NCBI GenBank assembly: GCA_947478925.1
Contig: CANJXY010000015.1
Location: 1-36,929, forward strand
DNA length: 36,929 bases
Direction: 5' to 3'
From: Hyphomonadaceae bacterium
Lineage (GTDB): Bacteria; Pseudomonadota; Alphaproteobacteria; Caulobacterales; Hyphomonadaceae
Shown here: positions 13,239 to 21,970 of the stretch, piece after piece
How the letters are laid out: each line of letters starts with the position of its first letter
Position numbering within the stretch: position 1 is the first letter of the stretch
The notes under the pieces: generated by a model
The model's database searches: none
Told to the model about the DNA's origin: nothing
The model's input: only the letters and a program-made list of their open reading frames with translations
Made by a program: the position numbers and the translations under genes

Positions 13239-15287
13239 ATGAGAATGTCCCTGCTTCTTGCCGCTTCGGCGGTCGCACTCCTTGCCGGCTGCTCGCCGGA
13301 CAAGCCTGCACCCGCTGCTGTCGTGGAGGCCCCGAAAGCCGCCCTCGGCACGTTCGGCATCGACACCACCGCGATGGACAAGGCTGTGAAGCCGGGAGAC
13401 GACTTCTACAAATACGTCAACGGGACGTGGCTCGCGACCTTCAAGATGCCAGCTGACAAGACGCGCTACGGCGCCTTCGACGGCCTGCGCGACAAGTCCG
13501 AGGCCGACGTGCGCGGCATCCTGGACGAGCTGACCAAGACGCCGCCGGCCGCCGGCTCGGTGCAGGAGAAAGTCGTCAACCTCTACAACTCGTGGATGGA
13601 CGAAGCCGCCATCGAAGCCGCCGGCATCACCCCGATCCAGGCTGACCTCGATGCGATCAACGCCGCCAAGACCAAGGCCGACGTCGTCAAGCTGATGGGC
13701 AACATCGACTATTCGGGGCCGGTCGGCATGTACATTCAGCCGGACCCGGTTGATCCGAACAAATACACGGTCTTCATCTCGCAGACCGGCCTCGGCATGC
13801 CGAACCGCGACTTCTACCTCGACAAGAACGAGCGCTTCGTTGGCTATCGCGCCGCCTACAAGGCCTACGTCACGAAGGTCTTCGAGCTGCTCGGCGACAA
13901 GGACGCGGCGAAATCTGCCGACACCGTCATCGCCCTTGAGACGAAACTCGCCACGGTTCACTGGGCGAACGAGCGCCAGCGCGACGTTCAGGCGACCAAC
14001 AACCCGGTCGACCGCGCCGGTCTCAAGAAGATGATCCCTGCCATGGATTGGGATGTCTTCCTCGCGGGCATCAACCTCGGCGACCAGCAGAACTTCGTCG
14101 TCGCCGAAACGACTGCCCTGCGCGACGGCGCCAAGCTTCTCGACACCCAGCCGGTCGACGCCTGGAAGAAGTATCTCGCCTTCCACCTCGCCAACGACTA
14201 CGCGAACGCGCTGCCGAAGGCTTTCGACGAAGCTAACTTCGCCTTCTACCGCAAGGCGCTCAACGGTCAGGAAGCTCAGCGTGACCGCTGGAAGCGCGGT
14301 ATCGGCCTGCTTGATGGCCTGATTGGGGAAGGCGTCGGCGAGATCTACGTCTCGAAATTCTTCCCGCCCGCATCCAAGACCAAGATGGACGAGCTGATTG
14401 CCAACCTCCGCGCTGGCATGGGGGAACGTCTCAAAACGCTGGCCTGGATGGACGAGCCGACGCGCGCGGAAGCGCAGAAGAAGCTCAGCACCTTCGATCC
14501 GCGCGTCGGATATCCTGTGAAATGGCGCGACTACACCGCCTTCACCGTCACCCCGGGCAAGCTGTTCGATAACATCCGCAACGGTCGCCGGTTCGAGTGG
14601 AACCGCCAGCTCGCGCAGATGAAAGGTCCTGTCGATCGCACCGAGTGGGGCATGAACCCGCAGACGGTGAACGCCTACTACGATCCGACGAAGAACCAGA
14701 TCACCTTCCCGGCCGCCATCCTGCAGCCCCCCTTCTTCGATCCGAACGCTGACCCGGCCGTGAACTACGGTGCGATCGGCGCTGTGATCGGCCACGAGAT
14801 GGGCCACGGCTTCGACGACCAGGGCGCGGAATACGACGAAGTTGGCAAGATCCGTAACTGGTGGACGCCGGCCACCAAGGCCAAGTTCAAGGAAGCCACG
14901 ACCAGGTTCGGCGCGCAGTACAACGCGTTCTGCCCGCTCGAAGGCCAGTGTGTGAAGGGCGACCTCACCATGGGCGAAAACATCGGCGACCTCGGCGGTC
15001 TCGAAATGGCCTATGCCGCCTACCACCTCTCGCTCGGCGGAAAGGAGGCCCCGGTCATCGACGGTTTCACCGGAGACCAGCGCTTCTTCATGGCGCACAC
15101 GCAGGTCTGGCGCGCGATGCAACGTGACGACGCGCTCGTCAACCAGATGCGCACCGACCCGCACTCGCCGGCCGCCGCGCGCGGTTCGATCCCCGAGCGC
15201 AACATCGACGCGTGGTACAAGGCGTTCGACGTGAAGGAAGGCGACAAGGCCTACATAGCCCCGGAAAACCGGGTCCACATCTGGTAG
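13239..15287 (+). CDS. M13 family zinc metallopeptidase lipoprotein (copy 1)
   Basis: 682 residues. M13 (neprilysin/PepO family) enzymes cleave peptides of limited size. The lipobox LLAGC (Cys18) anchors it to the envelope, facing the periplasm. It has an N-terminal M13 domain (about 45-430) and a C-terminal catalytic domain: substrate-binding NAYY, zinc site HEMGH (519-523), third ligand E580 in GENIGDLGG, and the ENRVHIW terminus. AGAGG precedes the ATG by 8 bases. It is first of three tandem paralogues and very like copy 2 (for example PGDDFYKYVNG versus PGDDFYRYVNG). Confidence 0.96.
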   Translation: MRMSLLLAASAVALLAGCSPDKPAPAAVVEAPKAALGTFGIDTTAMDKAVKPGDDFYKYVNGTWLATFKMPADKTRYGAFDGLRDKSEADVRGILDELTKTPPAAGSVQEKVVNLYNSWMDEAAIEAAGITPIQADLDAINAAKTKADVVKLMGNIDYSGPVGMYIQPDPVDPNKYTVFISQTGLGMPNRDFYLDKNERFVGYRAAYKAYVTKVFELLGDKDAAKSADTVIALETKLATVHWANERQRDVQATNNPVDRAGLKKMIPAMDWDVFLAGINLGDQQNFVVAETTALRDGAKLLDTQPVDAWKKYLAFHLANDYANALPKAFDEANFAFYRKALNGQEAQRDRWKRGIGLLDGLIGEGVGEIYVSKFFPPASKTKMDELIANLRAGMGERLKTLAWMDEPTRAEAQKKLSTFDPRVGYPVKWRDYTAFTVTPGKLFDNIRNGRRFEWNRQLAQMKGPVDRTEWGMNPQTVNAYYDPTKNQITFPAAILQPPFFDPNADPAVNYGAIGAVIGHEMGHGFDDQGAEYDEVGKIRNWWTPATKAKFKEATTRFGAQYNAFCPLEGQCVKGDLTMGENIGDLGGLEMAYAAYHLSLGGKEAPVIDGFTGDQRFFMAHTQVWRAMQRDDALVNQMRTDPHSPAAARGSIPERNIDAWYKAFDVKEGDKAYIAPENRVHIW

Positions 15288-15294
15288 TTCTTCC

Positions 15295-15326
15295 AGCGGC
15301 CGTCGCCTCACAAGGCGGCGGCCGCT
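15295..15326 (+). other. Strong intergenic hairpin between peptidase copies 1 and 2
   Basis: AGCGGCCGTCGCC and GGCGGCGGCCGCT form a 13-bp GC-rich stem with one mismatch/wobble and a short loop. It starts 8 bases after the copy 1 stop. No U-tract follows, so it may stabilise or process the mRNA, or weaken expression of copy 2, more than terminate. Confidence 0.55.
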
Positions 15327-15361
15327 CCACTTCTGACGTCTGGATCGCGTGGGGACTTTTC

Positions 15362-17419
15362 ATGCGCAGCACACTGCTCGCGGGCATCGCGTCCGCACTA
15401 CTTCTGTCCGCCTGTGGCGGTGAAAAGCCTGCAGCGCCTGCTGTTCCTCCCGAACCAGCCAAAGCCGCCGTCGGCACGTTCGGCATCGACCTTGCGCAGA
15501 TGGATACTTCGGTAAGGCCGGGCGACGACTTCTACCGTTATGTGAATGGCAAGTGGCTCGACACCTTCCAGATGCCTGCCGACCGTGCCAGCTACTCGAC
15601 TGGCACGATGGTGTTCGACACGACTGAGGCACAGGTCCGCGCCATCGTCGACGAGCTCGCCAAGACGAAAGGCGCGCCGGGCACAAACCAGCAGAAGATC
15701 GGCGATCTTTACGCCGCATGGATGGACGAAGCCGGCATCGAGGCGCGCGGCACGGAGCCGCTCAAACCTTATCTCGCCGCCATCGACGCCGTTTCCGACA
15801 AAGCCGGCTTGATGAAATTGTTCGGCTCGCTCGATTTCACCGCGCCTTTCAGCCTCGGCGTCGAGGTGGCCACGGTCGACCCCACCAGATACACGGTCTG
15901 GGTCTACCAGAGTGGCCTGGGCATGCCCCTCGATTACTATCTGAGCAAGGGCGAGAAGTTCGACGCCTACCGCGCCGCCTACAAGGACTTTGTCACCACG
16001 ATTTTCAAGCTGATCGGCGACGAGGACCCTGCTGGTTCAGCCACGAAGACCATCGCGCTCGAAATGAAGATCGCCAAAGTTGCCTGGTCGCCCGAGCGCC
16101 AGCGCAACATCAAGGCAGTCAACAACCCGATGGACCGCGCCGGGCTCAAGAAGCTCGCGCCCGCTATCGACTGGGACGTCGTGCTCGCTGGTCTGAACCT
16201 CGCCGATGCCAACGACTTCCTCGTAAACGAAACTACCGCCATCCGCGACGGCGGCAAGCTGGTCGACACGGTCGCCATCGCCGACTGGAAAAAGTATCTC
16301 GCCTTCCACTTCGTCAACGGCGCCACAAACTACCTGCCCAAGGCCTTCGACGACGCCGGCTTCAATTTCTATTCGAAGACGCTCAACGGCACAGAAAAGA
16401 AGCGTGACCGCTGGAAGCGCGGCATGTCTCGGCTTGAGGAAGTGATCGGCGAAGGGCTCGGCGAGATCTATGTCCAGAAGCACTTCTCCGCTGACTCAAA
16501 GATCAAGATGGACGCGCTCGTCGCCAATCTCCGCGTCGCCCTGAAATCGCGTCTCGAAACCGCAACCTGGATGGACGACGCCACGCGCGCCGAAGCAATC
16601 AAGAAGCTCGACAGGTTCGAGGCCCGCATCGGCTTCCCGGACAAATGGCGCGACTATTCGAAGCTCACGATCGAGCCGGGCAAGCTGTTCGAGAACATGC
16701 GCGCTTCAAAGAAATACGAGTGGGACCGTCAGGTCGCGCGTCTGAAGGGGCCAGTTGATCGCTCGGAATGGATCATCACCCCGCAGACGGTCGACGCCTA
16801 TTACAACGCGCAGACGAACCAGATCACCTTTCCGGCCGCAATCCTGCAACCTCCTTTCTTCGACCCCAACGCCGACGCAGCGGTCAACTACGGCGCCATA
16901 GGCGCGGTGATCGGCCACGAGATCGGTCACGGCTTCGACGATCAGGGCCGCGAGTTCGATGGCGAGGGCAAGGTACGCAACTGGTGGACGCCGGAGACCA
17001 ACAAGAAGTTCGTCGAGTCGACGGCGAAATTCGCAGCCCAGTACGACGCCTTCTGCCCGCTACCCGCCAGCCCGAAGGAGTGCATCAACGGCCGCTTCAC
17101 CATGGGCGAGAATCTCGGCGACCTCGGTGGTCTTGAGATGGCCTACACCGCCTACAAGCTCGCGTTGGGCGGCAAGGAAGCTCCGGTTATCGACGGCTTC
17201 ACCGGCGACCAGCGCTTCTTCCTCGCGCACGCGCAGATCTGGCGCGCCATGCAGCGCGACGACGATCTGCTGAACCAGATGAAGACTGACCCTCACGCAC
17301 CGGCTGCCGCGCGCGGCTCGTTCCCAGAGCGCAATATCGATGCCTGGTACGCGGCGTTCGGCGTGAAGGAAGGCGACAAGGCCTACATCGCCCCGGAAAA
17401 CCGCGTTCACATCTGGTAG
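15362..17419 (+). CDS. M13 family zinc metallopeptidase lipoprotein (copy 2)
   Basis: 685 residues from the ATG at 15362, where the signal MRSTLLAGIASALLLSAC (lipobox Cys18) begins. The open frame extends upstream to 15212 but overlaps copy 1 and lacks a signal. The zinc site is HEIGH (519-523), with GENLGDLGG as the third-ligand motif and a C-terminal ENRVHIW. One residue is unusual: the substrate-binding NAxY motif reads DAYY (D478), where copies 1 and 3 have NAYY and NAFY. In neprilysin this Asn contacts the substrate backbone, so specificity or activity may differ. It is followed by an intrinsic terminator. Confidence 0.95.
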   Translation: MRSTLLAGIASALLLSACGGEKPAAPAVPPEPAKAAVGTFGIDLAQMDTSVRPGDDFYRYVNGKWLDTFQMPADRASYSTGTMVFDTTEAQVRAIVDELAKTKGAPGTNQQKIGDLYAAWMDEAGIEARGTEPLKPYLAAIDAVSDKAGLMKLFGSLDFTAPFSLGVEVATVDPTRYTVWVYQSGLGMPLDYYLSKGEKFDAYRAAYKDFVTTIFKLIGDEDPAGSATKTIALEMKIAKVAWSPERQRNIKAVNNPMDRAGLKKLAPAIDWDVVLAGLNLADANDFLVNETTAIRDGGKLVDTVAIADWKKYLAFHFVNGATNYLPKAFDDAGFNFYSKTLNGTEKKRDRWKRGMSRLEEVIGEGLGEIYVQKHFSADSKIKMDALVANLRVALKSRLETATWMDDATRAEAIKKLDRFEARIGFPDKWRDYSKLTIEPGKLFENMRASKKYEWDRQVARLKGPVDRSEWIITPQTVDAYYNAQTNQITFPAAILQPPFFDPNADAAVNYGAIGAVIGHEIGHGFDDQGREFDGEGKVRNWWTPETNKKFVESTAKFAAQYDAFCPLPASPKECINGRFTMGENLGDLGGLEMAYTAYKLALGGKEAPVIDGFTGDQRFFLAHAQIWRAMQRDDDLLNQMKTDPHAPAAARGSFPERNIDAWYAAFGVKEGDKAYIAPENRVHIW

Positions 17420-17444
17420 GACGCAAACCTGCGACAAAATCAAC

Positions 17445-17473
17445 AAAGCCCGCGCCCATGGTCGCGGGCTTTT
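17445..17473 (+). terminator. Intrinsic terminator after peptidase copy 2
   Basis: AAAGCCCGCG (17445-17454) pairs with CGCGGGCTTT (17463-17472), loop of 8, and the T-run continues into TTTTCCTTT. It begins 26 bases after the copy 2 stop. An ATG in its loop (17458) opens the frame of copy 3 but cannot sensibly be its start. Confidence 0.8.
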
Positions 17474-17529
17474 CCTTTACCTGCGCGAGCGCGCTTGACT
17501 TGGGACCGCCGCCGGAAAGACTCCGGTCC

Positions 17530-19617
17530 GTGAAGTCGCATGCGGGAACGCCCTTGATCGCCGGCCTGCTCAAACGCCTCGGCCCCTTGATGACGGGCGC
17601 AATGGCGGCTGCGTCTCTCTTTCTGACGGCCTGCACCGTCCCGGCCGCGCCAGCGCCCCAGCACGCCGGAGACTTCGTCCAGAAGATGCCGCCCAACGTC
17701 GCGCGACTGCCGCGCCCGCGTCTTGGCGACGACTTCTACGGCTATGTTAACAACCAGTGGCTCGCGACCTACAAGCTGCCTGCCGACAAGGCGTCCTTCG
17801 GCGCCGCCGAGGAACTGGCCGACCACTCCGAGAGCGAGGTCCGCACGATGATCGAGGAGATCATCACCGCTCGCCCCGCCAAGGGCACGACCGAACAGAA
17901 GATCGCTGATCTCTATGCCGCTGCCCTCGACGAGAAGACGATCGAAGCGCGCGGGCTGGATCCCATCCGGCCGCATCTCGCGCGTATCCACGCGGCAACG
18001 ACGCTGGATGACATCACGCGCCTGATGGGCCGTATCGGCTACAACTCGCCGTTCAGCGCGGGCGTCGCGCCCTCGCCCGCCGATCCTGACGCCAACGCCG
18101 TGTGGATTTCGCAGGCCGGCCTCGGCATGCCCCATCGCGGCTATTATCTCGACAGCGGCCTGCAATCGACCACGCTGCAAGTCGCCTATCGCCGCCATAT
18201 CTCGACGATCCTCGGTCTGATCGGCGAGAGCGATCCCGACAGGGGGGCACAGCGCCTCTACAATCTCGAATACCGCATCGCTCAGGCGCAAACCGACGAA
18301 GATCGCTCGATCAGCGCCACCGAATCGATGCGCGCGATGAGCTATGCCGACCTCAAGGCCTTCGCCCCGGGCTTCGACTGGGCCACATTCCTCAAAGCCG
18401 CCGGCATGGACAGCGCAAGCCGCTTTGTCGTCACCGACCAGACCGCCGTGCCCGCGCTTGCGAAGCTCGTGTCCGACGTTTCCATCGACGACTGGAAGCT
18501 CTGGCTCGAATTCCACATCGCCAGCGACTTCTCCCCGTCCTTGCCGAAAGCTTTCGCGGATTCGTATTTCGACTTCTTCACCCGCCAGCTCTCGGGCATC
18601 ACCGAAAGGCCCGAGCGCTGGAAGTTCGCCATCAGCGTCGTCAACGAACAGCTCGGCGACGCCGTGGCCGAGCTCTATGTGAAGCGCTATTTCCCGGCTG
18701 ACAACAAGACGAAAATCGACGCCATTGTCGGCAACATACGCACCGCCTTCGCCTCGCGCATGCGCTCGCTCGACTGGATGGACGACAAGACGCGCGCCGC
18801 CGCCCTCGCCAAGCTCGATGCGCTCCAGGGCATGATCGCCTACCCGGATAGCTGGCGCGATTATTCCAGCCTTGATATCGAACCCGGCAAGCTGGTCGAG
18901 GGTATCTTTGCCGCCTTCGAACTCGACTGGCGCGAGCAACAGAACGATCTGTCCACACAGGTTGATCGCCGCCGGTGGGAGGCGCCGGCCCACGTCGTCA
19001 ACGCTTTCTACAGTCCACTCGGCAACACGTTCGTGCTGCCTGCGGGCATCCTGCAGCCGCCCTTCTTTGATCCCAAGGCGGACCCCGCCGCCAATTATGG
19101 CGGCATTGGCGCCGTCATCGGCCACGAGATGAGCCACGGCTTCGACGATCAGGGCCGCCAGTTCGACAGCGTCGGCCGGGCGGTCAACTGGTGGACCAGC
19201 GAAACCGACGACCGCTTCGTCGCGCGCTCCAACCAGCTGATCGATCAGTACGACCGCTACTGCCCTTATTTCAGCGCTTGCGTGAATGGTCTGGGCACGC
19301 TCGGCGAGAACATCGGCGACCTTGCGGGACTGGAGATCGCCTACGCCGCCTATCACCTCTCGCTCGGCGGTGTCGCAGCGCCTCTTGTCGATGGCCTCAC
19401 CGGCGACCAGCGCTTCTTCCTCGCCTACGCGCAGAGCTATCGCGAGAAGGTCCGCGAGGAATACGCCAAGGCCCTGCTCGAAGGCGACAGCCACGCGCCG
19501 AGCCGCTATCGCGTCAACGGCGTCATCCGCAACATGGACGCGTGGTACGCCGCCTTCGACATCAAACCCACCGACCGCCTCTACCTCGCCCCGGAGGAGC
19601 GCGTCCGGATCTGGTGA
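17530..19617 (+). CDS. M13 family zinc metallopeptidase lipoprotein (copy 3, divergent)
   Basis: 695 residues from a GTG at 17530, preceded by GGAAAG. This start gives a charged n-region with KR and a hydrophobic core ending in FLTAC (lipobox Cys35). The in-frame ATG at 17458 lies in the loop of a terminator and is rejected; the ATG at 17590 loses the charged n-region. Catalytic domain: NAFY, zinc site HEMSH (532-536), GENIGDLAG and C-terminal ERVRIW. It differs more from copies 1 and 2 than they do from each other. A terminator separates it from copy 2, so it probably has its own promoter. Confidence 0.93.
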   Translation: MKSHAGTPLIAGLLKRLGPLMTGAMAAASLFLTACTVPAAPAPQHAGDFVQKMPPNVARLPRPRLGDDFYGYVNNQWLATYKLPADKASFGAAEELADHSESEVRTMIEEIITARPAKGTTEQKIADLYAAALDEKTIEARGLDPIRPHLARIHAATTLDDITRLMGRIGYNSPFSAGVAPSPADPDANAVWISQAGLGMPHRGYYLDSGLQSTTLQVAYRRHISTILGLIGESDPDRGAQRLYNLEYRIAQAQTDEDRSISATESMRAMSYADLKAFAPGFDWATFLKAAGMDSASRFVVTDQTAVPALAKLVSDVSIDDWKLWLEFHIASDFSPSLPKAFADSYFDFFTRQLSGITERPERWKFAISVVNEQLGDAVAELYVKRYFPADNKTKIDAIVGNIRTAFASRMRSLDWMDDKTRAAALAKLDALQGMIAYPDSWRDYSSLDIEPGKLVEGIFAAFELDWREQQNDLSTQVDRRRWEAPAHVVNAFYSPLGNTFVLPAGILQPPFFDPKADPAANYGGIGAVIGHEMSHGFDDQGRQFDSVGRAVNWWTSETDDRFVARSNQLIDQYDRYCPYFSACVNGLGTLGENIGDLAGLEIAYAAYHLSLGGVAAPLVDGLTGDQRFFLAYAQSYREKVREEYAKALLEGDSHAPSRYRVNGVIRNMDAWYAAFDIKPTDRLYLAPEERVRIW

Positions 19618-19674: not shown

Positions 19675-20646
19675 ATGCCGGTTCCGGATTCCACGCGCCA
19701 TGCCCGCGACGCCGCCGAAGCAATCGGCGCGCGATTCGACGATCTCGATGGCGGCGAAGGCTATCTGTTCCGGATCTCGCGTGAGGGGCGCTTCGTGCTC
19801 GGCGGCGGCGGCAATGTCTGCGCCTACCCGGTCAACAGCGCGCCTGCCTACACCATCTCGCGCGACAAGGCCCACACCAAGGCCGTGCTCACAGCCGTTG
19901 GCATCAAAGTCATTCCCGGCAGCCTCTGGTTTGCCCACACGCGCCGCGCCGCGCTGCGTGGGCCGGGACGCGAAGCCGGCGACGCCGCCGCCTTTGCCCA
20001 GCGCCGCGGCTATCCCGTGTTCTGCAAGCCAAACACCGGCTCGCGCGGGACTTTTGCAGAGATCGTTCGCAGCCCCGCCGATCTCGACGACTATATCCAG
20101 CGCCTCGCCGTCGACTTCGAATCCTTCCTGATCGAGCCCGTGCTCGATGGCGAGGAGCACCGCGTTTTCGTCCTCGACGGTCGGCCCGTCTTCCATTCCA
20201 CCAAATCAGCGCCCAGCCTGATCGGGGATGGACGTTCTTCGGTCGCGCAGCTTCTCGCCGCGCTGAATTCCACGCTACAGCTTGAGGGCGTTTCGGCGTT
20301 GCCAGCCTCCGCCCTCGCCGGCCGCGACCTTGCCGCGACGCCTTCAGCCGGCGAACACATCGCGCTGCCCGGCCGGCGCAACCTCTCGGCACAGGGCAGC
20401 ATCGAAGCCGTCAGCGAGCATGTCCCGCCCCAACTCGCCGCGCCTGCTATCGCTGCTGCGGCGGCGCTCGGCCTGCGCGCCAGCGCGGTCGACATGTTCG
20501 ACCTGTCGCCCGCACGTGACTTGTCCGACATTGTGGTGATCGAAGTGAACGGCAATCCCGGCCTGCGTACGCTCGAACTCGCTGGCCGAAGTGACCTGAT
20601 CCGCGCTATCTGGGTTCACATGTTGAACGCGTGCCTTAACGCCTGA
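19675..20646 (+). CDS. ATP-grasp ligase resembling the cyanophycin synthetase ATP-grasp module
   Basis: 323 residues, no signal peptide, cytoplasmic. ATP-grasp enzymes activate a carboxylate as acyl-phosphate and join it to an amine. In order: TISRDKAHTKAVLTAVGIKV (about 60-79), the linker helix seen in CphA-like and glutathione-synthase-like members; CKPNTGSRGTF (117-127), with the ATP-binding Lys; IEPVLDGEEHRVFVLDGR (153-170); GDGRSSVAQLL (184-194), very like the GDG-x-x-TV-x-L motif of cyanophycin synthetase; and the metal-binding VIEVNGNPGL (288-297). It has no Mur-ligase domain, but the next gene, 13 bp downstream, encodes one. The substrate is unknown. There is no clear ribosome binding site at the ATG. 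Confidence 0.8.
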   Translation: MPVPDSTRHARDAAEAIGARFDDLDGGEGYLFRISREGRFVLGGGGNVCAYPVNSAPAYTISRDKAHTKAVLTAVGIKVIPGSLWFAHTRRAALRGPGREAGDAAAFAQRRGYPVFCKPNTGSRGTFAEIVRSPADLDDYIQRLAVDFESFLIEPVLDGEEHRVFVLDGRPVFHSTKSAPSLIGDGRSSVAQLLAALNSTLQLEGVSALPASALAGRDLAATPSAGEHIALPGRRNLSAQGSIEAVSEHVPPQLAAPAIAAAAALGLRASAVDMFDLSPARDLSDIVVIEVNGNPGLRTLELAGRSDLIRAIWVHMLNACLNA

Positions 20647-20659
20647 TCCTGGACGATCG

Positions 20660-21970
20660 ATGTTCGGACTTCCCAAATTCGGCGACGGCATCGGCCTGCA
20701 CCGCATCGAGCGGTTCCTGACCCTGCACCGCATCGACCGCGCCACCCTCGCCCGCCGCTCCATCGCCGTGACCGGCACTAATGGCAAGGGATCGACTGCG
20801 CGGTTCATCACCTCCGCGATCGAGGCTGCCGGCATGCGCGTTGGTTGCTTTACCTCGCCCCATCTCTTTGATGTGCGCGAGCGCTTCACCATCGGCGACC
20901 AACCCATTCCCGCCGAAGCTTATGAACGCCACGGCAAGACGGTGCTGGCCTACAACGCCACGCTGCCGGAAGGCGATCGGATGGGCGCGTTCGAGTTTCT
21001 CTTCCTGCTCGCCATCCTATGGTTCAACGAGACCAAGCCCGACGCCATCGTCTGGGAGGCCGGCATAGGCGGGCGCTACGATCCGGTGCGCTGCGTGCGC
21101 GCCAGCGTTTCGGTGCTGACCTCGATCGAGCTCGAGCATACCGAACTCCTCGGCGGCACTGAAGAACTGATAGCCTACGACAAGGTCGATGCGCTCGCTC
21201 CGGGCGGTTGTGTCGTTCTGTCGCCCTCGATTCCCGAAGCCCTGGCAAAGCGCATCGCCGCCTATGCCAGTCTCGCGGGCAAGGCGATCCTTCCGGCTCT
21301 GGCCAGCCGCCGCGTCACCAACGTGTCCAACACGCACAAGGGCGCGCGCTTTTCCTACGGCTTTCTCGCAGCACCTCCCGAAGCCGATCAGACGGTGCGC
21401 CTGAAGCTCGCCGGCCAGCATCAGGTCGATAACGCCGTCTCGGCCCTGCGCGCCGCCGAGGTCTGGCTAGGCCTCAAGCCGGAGGAAAACGCCGAGCGCC
21501 ACTTCGCCATGCTGGCAGGCCTTGGCCATACACGATGGCCCGGACGCCTTGAGAAGGTCGCGCATGCGCCCGACCTCTGGATTGACGTTGGTCACACGCC
21601 GCGCGCTCTCGAAGCTGTCACCCGGACTTTCCTTGAGTTCGTGCCGCGCGAAAAGACGCTCGTCGTCTTTGGCGTCTCTGCGTCAAAGGAAGTAACCGGC
21701 ATAGCCGAAGTCGTCGCCAGCCGCTTCGACCGTTTCATTCTTACACGCGCCTACAAATCCGGCGCGGACATCTCGCTTTTCGAGCCGATCTTCCGCAGCA
21801 GATCGACCGACGTCACAATCGCTTCCGACACTGCGTCCGCCGCGCAGCTCGCCCGAACGCGCGCCAACATTGACGGCATGAGCGTCCTTGTCCTCGGCGG
21901 GCTCTTCCTCGCTGCCGAAATCCAGCGCGCCTGGCAGGGCGGCGATCCGACCAATATGGATTTTTTCTAG
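20660..21970 (+). CDS. FolC/Mur-ligase family amide ligase
   Basis: 436 residues. P-loop GTNGKGST (39-46), SPHLFDVRERF (66-76), FEFLFLLAILWF (111-122), E133 in WEAGIGGRYDP, LEHTELLGGTEELIAYDKVD (158-177) with the Lys that is carbamylated in this family, GQHQVDNAVSALRAAE (252-267), WPGRLEKV (293-300) and FGVSASKEVTGI. This is the folylpolyglutamate synthase fold. However, the FolC motif DGAHNP reads DVGHTP here (309-314) and the gene is not in the usual accD-folC context, so a different substrate is likely. It starts 13 bp after the ATP-grasp gene, almost surely in one operon. Its stop directly abuts the stop of the convergent patatin gene. Confidence 0.82.
   Translation: MFGLPKFGDGIGLHRIERFLTLHRIDRATLARRSIAVTGTNGKGSTARFITSAIEAAGMRVGCFTSPHLFDVRERFTIGDQPIPAEAYERHGKTVLAYNATLPEGDRMGAFEFLFLLAILWFNETKPDAIVWEAGIGGRYDPVRCVRASVSVLTSIELEHTELLGGTEELIAYDKVDALAPGGCVVLSPSIPEALAKRIAAYASLAGKAILPALASRRVTNVSNTHKGARFSYGFLAAPPEADQTVRLKLAGQHQVDNAVSALRAAEVWLGLKPEENAERHFAMLAGLGHTRWPGRLEKVAHAPDLWIDVGHTPRALEAVTRTFLEFVPREKTLVVFGVSASKEVTGIAEVVASRFDRFILTRAYKSGADISLFEPIFRSRSTDVTIASDTASAAQLARTRANIDGMSVLVLGGLFLAAEIQRAWQGGDPTNMDFF

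Follow-up and report, generated by a model that had tools for sequence, protein, structure and literature searches.

Two adjacent genes in a Hyphomonadaceae bacterium encode, in order, an ATP-grasp enzyme and a ligase of the Mur/FolC type, the two catalytic modules that cyanophycin synthetase (CphA) carries in one protein. Are they a split cyanophycin synthetase, a housekeeping folC beside an unrelated neighbour, or a pathway of their own? The window, by which we mean the whole stretch of DNA analysed (36,929 nucleotides), is contig C15 of a 3.94 Mb assembly of 344 contigs (G000). The earlier note on this DNA had described two open reading frames 13 bp apart, with the motifs CKPN, GDGRSSVAQLL and EVNGNPGL in the first product (P0001) and GTNGKGST, WPGRLEKV and DVGHTP in the second (P0002). 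We recovered both frames at the positions given there, together with all six motifs (Table 1). Three tandem M13 (neprilysin-type) peptidase genes lie directly upstream of the pair (13239-19617, + strand); most genus-mates have two copies.

Table 1. Positions of the two genes, of selected codons within them, and of the c38 genes discussed in the text (window coordinates unless a locus is given)
Feature	Position	Strand	Remarks
ATP-grasp ligase gene P0001, 323 aa	19675..20646	+	Relatives: CphA G domain, NAGGN synthetase, GshF
K118-P-N codons, ATP alpha-phosphate lysine	20026..20034	+	= TeCphA1 K261; K118 invariant in family (PMC9427784)
R163 codon, equivalent of catalytic Arg309 in TeCphA1	20161..20163	+	Invariant (PMC9427784)
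E290-V-N-G-N-P-G, metal-binding motif	20542..20562	+	TeCphA1 E450 (PMC9427784)
Intergenic gap, 13 bp	20647..20659	+	Overlap of 1-8 bases usual in orthologous pairs
FolC-fold ligase gene P0002, 436 aa	20660..21970	+	Clade apart from housekeeping FolC
P-loop GTNGKGS, residues 39-45	20774..20794	+	Common to FolC
G109 codon	20984..20986	+	Gly in 21/21 paralogues, Thr/Ser in 36/36 FolC; putative equivalent of Mtb FolC S150
R144 codon	21089..21091	+	Arg/Lys in 21/21 paralogues; Asn in 36/36 FolC (DATN motif)
DVGHTP, residues 309-314	21584..21601	+	MurE-like form of FolC DGxHNP
G413-G414 codons	21896..21901	+	Gly-Ser in 35/36 FolC; the Ser is a modelled glutamate gamma-carboxylate contact, putatively Mtb S473
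c38 copies	L074:3513-4715, L075:1904-3112, L189:8972-10351, L190:8707-10347		P-loop GSKGKGTT; DxxH motif not clear

Codon comparison with genus-mates revealed differences at 48-54% of third positions and at 12-28% of first and second positions, so that third positions vary about 2 to 5 times as much as the others. Because third positions vary most, P0001 and P0002 are under protein-level selection. This bias, the orthologues in many genomes and the match of P0002 to a curated FolC model all indicate that the two frames are genes and not chance ORFs.

The nearest relative of P0001 is the G domain of CphA. Its best NCBIfam match is the CphA model TIGR02068 (cya_phycin_syn), at 82 bits against a cut-off of 850, and the alignment is confined to model positions 206-449, which correspond to that domain. 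CphA1 also came first in a profile search of the PDB (7lgm, 7wac), and TeCphA1 was the top Foldseek match of the predicted structure (pLDDT 88; TM about 0.6 over the query). Weaker matches were N-acetylglutaminylglutamine synthetase (TIGR03103, 67 bits, cut-off 569) and GshF (46 bits); their ATP-grasp domains are related, but P0001 scores far under the cut-offs, lacks the GNAT or GshA domain and has a FolC-like partner. The poly-gamma-glutamate synthase model for PgsB/CapB (TIGR04012) was not reached (16.9 vs 222.7 bits).

The roles of the TeCphA1 G-domain residues, K261, R309 and E450 among them, have been described (PMC9427784). The ATP- and metal-related residues K220, K261, R309, D431 and E450 correspond to K65, K118, R163, D273 and E290 of P0001 and are invariant in its family, which also keeps K177 and has Lys or Arg at the position of TeCphA1 R323. 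The catalytic His267, whose exchange for alanine (H267A) inactivates CphA (PMC9262961), is missing: it aligns with R124 in P0001 and with R/K/G in relatives. Glu215 of TeCphA1 is not conserved in the family alignment, and an equivalent of Arg458 is retained only near Hyphomonadaceae. Since the equivalents of the ATP, metal and Arg309 residues are kept while those of His267 and Glu215 are not, P0001 probably acts, by analogy with the G domain, by activating a terminal carboxylate as its acyl phosphate before ligating an amine, with a different substrate.

P0002, in turn, is of the FolC type. It passes the curated FolC subfamily model TIGR01499 (248 vs 162.65 bits) and scores 35 bits against the CphA model TIGR02068. 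In a profile search it reached 254 bits with FPGS structures, 69 with MurE and 31 with CphA. The AlphaFold model (pLDDT 90) has Mycobacterium tuberculosis (Mtb) FPGS as its top Foldseek match, with a TM of 0.83.

It is worth stressing that this similarity does not make P0002 the housekeeping FolC. No second folC was detected in a search of the 344 contigs, in which P0002 was the sole FolC above the cut-off; at first sight this fulfils one of the conditions under which the earlier note would have given up its reading. In 12 of the 14 other genomes of the genus, however, the paralogue, which scores about 208-247 bits, is accompanied by a further FolC at about 294-319 bits. Genus-mates that were examined have the housekeeping FolC gene next to accD and/or an M16 peptidase gene, and the accD-folC locus holds it in nearly all genus-mates (the region was not recovered in G004). 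In the genome of the window, contig C212 ends with trpBA-accD and one further gene, which is 83% identical to the folC-adjacent gene of G005, and the gene for the M16 peptidase, which in genus-mates comes after folC, breaks off at codon 316, where contig C263 stops. With accD and the M16 peptidase at contig ends, synteny places the housekeeping folC, tightly, in the gap that would separate C212 from C263. We thus rejected the idea that P0002 is the only folC of the genome. In a phylogenetic tree, 21 FolC-like proteins, P0002 included, stand apart from 18 housekeeping FolCs (support 99/100 for the housekeeping clade and a moderate 82/94 for the FolC-like one). One genus-mate (G013) encodes a third, high-scoring FolC (377 bits) elsewhere in its genome (L081:7027-8343).

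What distinguishes the two clades became apparent when the 21 paralogues were aligned with 36 FolCs. The FolC-like clade keeps the P-loop with K43, the SPH and ER motifs, E133, H160, K175, R296, D309, H312 and K343. Six other positions are replaced throughout or nearly throughout the clade: T/S109 by G, N144 by R/K, D159 by E, G177 by D, N313 by T/S and S414 by G. Through the T/S-x-F-E motif, position 109 can be equated with S150 of Mtb FolC, whose hydroxyl was modelled to hydrogen-bond dihydropteroate and which is a glycine in a highly PAS-resistant isolate (PMC9637297). Position 414 is glycine in all 20 paralogues with sequence there and serine in 35 of the 36 FolCs. It would equal Mtb Ser473, as judged from the C-terminal Gly-Ser motif and a family reading (the alignments end before Mtb 473), and this serine was modelled as a contact for the glutamate gamma-carboxylate (PMC10861534). 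Both contact sites, for dihydropteroate and for glutamate, are thus models in the source papers. The DVGHTP motif had been read as a degenerate FolC motif, a description that did not hold: DVxH(T/S)P is essentially invariant across the clade, and the T form is that of the genome's own MurE (DYAHTP). Because the chemistry is kept and both substrate pockets are changed alike clade-wide, the simplest reading of the P0002 clade is that its members are ligases acting on other substrates.

The two genes also travel together. Within the genus, 13 of 15 members have the ATP-grasp gene, each time directly before the FolC-like gene (in G003 the ATP-grasp gene is broken across two contigs). The same family contributed two more pairs, in G020 and in Hyphomonas sp. 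ih12 (G023); the ATP-grasp gene was absent from the other 20 genomes sampled there, with one weak match only. A survey of 385 alphaproteobacterial genomes found the FolC-like subfamily (E <= 1e-62) in four, and the ATP-grasp gene adjoined it in all four. Family f174 (119 genomes) has the ATP-grasp gene in 15 members, and the pair was present at 8 of 8 newly examined loci as well as at 3 found earlier. Further pairs occur in G100, G182, G285, an Achromatium locus (L100) and a Troglogloeales MAG (L098). Relatives with names are Hyphomonadaceae MAGs, a Bradyrhizobiaceae MAG, a Candidatus Troglogloeales (Nitrospirota) MAG and Candidatus Achromatium palustre. No homologues of P0001 were detected in the viral contigs or plasmids searched.

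The gap between the paired genes is mostly -8 to +13 bases. The identities of the two proteins co-vary (Pearson 0.92, 18 pairs), a correlation to which shared phylogeny contributes, and all 18 paired copies fall into one clade of the ATP-grasp tree (support 97/99). The Troglogloeales copy nests among Proteobacteria in both the ATP-grasp and the FolC-like tree, which suggests that the two genes were transferred together, horizontally, into this lineage; the alternative is a mis-binned MAG contig.

A few genomes depart from this pattern. In G007 and G010, the FolC-like gene lacks its ATP-grasp partner, and a gene of another family, c38, takes its place, overlapping the start of the paralogue. 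The c38 proteins are a distinct FolC-like family, for which the best region is confined to the N-terminal half of the FolC model at 107-111 bits, below the cut-off. In G075 the c38 gene has folC on one side and trxA on the other; in G093 and G221 it adjoins trxA, and folC is a few kilobases away. Conversely, one MAG locus (L096) has the ATP-grasp gene and no FolC-like neighbour, and in G064 and G165 the ATP-grasp relatives are more remote and the P0002 subfamily is absent.

The surroundings of the pair give few clues to its product. Genes for M13 peptidases, patatin, murI, aguB and aguA are common to the Hyphomonadaceae copies only; the f174, G100, Achromatium and Rhizobiales-type loci have neighbours unrelated to these. 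As aguA-aguB and murI occur only next to Hyphomonadaceae copies, the suggestion in the earlier note that agmatine or D-glutamate might be building blocks is unsupported. Across the lineages examined, no transporter, tailoring or precursor gene was conserved with the pair. One recurring link is with folate. In one family, of which G182 and G285 are the only genomes sampled, the pair separates folC from trxA: the order in G182 is accD-folC-ATP-grasp-FolC-like-trxA (L150:7881-12540). The c38 loci may point the same way, as may G064, where the distant ATP-grasp relative (L153:9027-10876) overlaps the end of thyA, with folA and a GNAT gene nearby. In Achromatium, a RimK-like ATP-grasp gene stands just after the pair, in convergent orientation (L100:5988-6926).

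These results allow us to propose, with a probability of roughly 55%, that the pair is a mobile operon whose two enzymes form amide bonds at the expense of ATP, in two steps of a dedicated pathway, and that the product is most likely neither standard folylpolyglutamate nor cyanophycin. A dedicated amide-bond-forming module had already been proposed for this locus, and it is still the best reading of a pair that is conserved, tightly coupled and distinct from housekeeping FolC. The two checks by which the earlier note could have been refuted, on P0002 as the only folC grouping with housekeeping FolC and on a pair absent from relatives, left it standing. The predicted mechanism class, two acyl-phosphate ligases, is well supported by homology. 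Each enzyme would activate a carboxylate as an acyl phosphate, which an amine then attacks. The ATP-grasp enzyme, in the style of the CphA G domain, would link a small acceptor, through its terminal carboxylate, to an amino acid or a comparable amine, and the FolC-fold enzyme, in the style of FPGS and Mur ligases, would add a second building block. As the latter would not handle dihydropteroate or glutamate as FolC does, the product would most likely be a small amide-linked molecule. What the comparisons show is that the pairing is conserved, that the two proteins diverge in step, and that catalytic residues are kept and substrate residues exchanged; that both enzymes act on one molecule, and in what order and to what product, is what we infer.

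The main rival, which we consider unlikely, is that the pair modifies the folate tail, extending or capping tetrahydrofolate with, for instance, an alpha-linked glutamate or another amino acid. Its attraction is that P0002 belongs to the FolC family, that ATP-grasp enzymes of the RimK/MptN/CofF type cap other cofactors, and that alpha linkages have been reported in the distal folate tail of Escherichia coli (PMC1971073). The gene order of G182, the folC-trxA slot that c38 (the ATP-grasp replacement in G007 and G010) occupies in G075, and the thyA overlap in G064 fit it as well. However, every paralogue with sequence at these sites has lost the hydroxyl residue that holds dihydropteroate and the serine modelled to hold glutamate, most copies (Hyphomonadaceae, f174, G100, Achromatium) lie away from folate genes, and the position in G182 could simply be ancestral.

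Far less probable is a split cyanophycin synthetase, in which both proteins would jointly produce cyanophycin or a related polymer of two amino acids. CphA1 (TIGR02068; PDB 7wac, 7lg5) has its Mur-type ligase after the ATP-grasp module, in the order of the two genes, and its G domain is the best match of P0001 in sequence and fold. Yet in CphA1 one chain holds the N, G and M domains, whereas the pair consists of two proteins without the N domain or His267, Glu215 is not kept and the Arg458 equivalent is retained only near Hyphomonadaceae. The M domain is moreover MurE-like and P0002 FolC-like, so that the split synthetase suggested earlier is not supported in the sense of descent. No other CphA-like ATP-grasp gene was found in the genome. 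The pair may work like CphA only in the loose sense that an ATP-grasp and a Mur-fold ligase act in turn. Similarly improbable is that P0002 is a redundant FolC of the housekeeping type beside an unrelated ATP-grasp gene. The TIGR01499 match and the lack of a second folC in the assembly speak for it; the placement of the true folC in the assembly gap, the conserved pairing and the separate P0002 clade speak against it.

Two further known systems come close to the pair. FolC/FPGS (TIGR01499; PDB 2vos, 1w78, 1fgs) shares with P0002 the fold, the P-loop and the catalytic Lys, His, Asp and Arg, but differs in the dihydropteroate Thr/Ser, the glutamate Ser and the DGxHNP motif, and in genus-mates it exists alongside the paralogue. 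The pseudomurein ligase clusters of methanogens (PMC11915815) likewise bring an ATP-grasp gene together with genes for Mur-type ligases, although this is an archaeal cell-wall peptide pathway with other subfamilies. We found no publication on the gene pair itself in the open-licence literature.

The pair is thus real, conserved and uncharacterised, and is built from two known kinds of enzyme. Its wider interpretation, on which we are evenly divided, is a two-gene pathway that spreads horizontally: a CphA-type ATP-grasp enzyme and a FolC-fold ligase turned to a new purpose would together make a small molecule or modified cofactor not described before, and the carriers would be Hyphomonadaceae, further Alphaproteobacteria (among them, presumably, the Bradyrhizobium-like genomes of f174), Achromatium and a Nitrospirota MAG. 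Because the FolC model is passed, the P0002-type gene of the carriers is likely annotated as FolC, which conceals a distinct ligase, and the diagnostic residues offer a simple rule for separating this clade from true FolC. Should the product prove to be a new amide-linked metabolite or an altered folate tail, common environmental bacteria would gain one more biosynthetic pathway on their record, and with it two new ligases of altered specificity.
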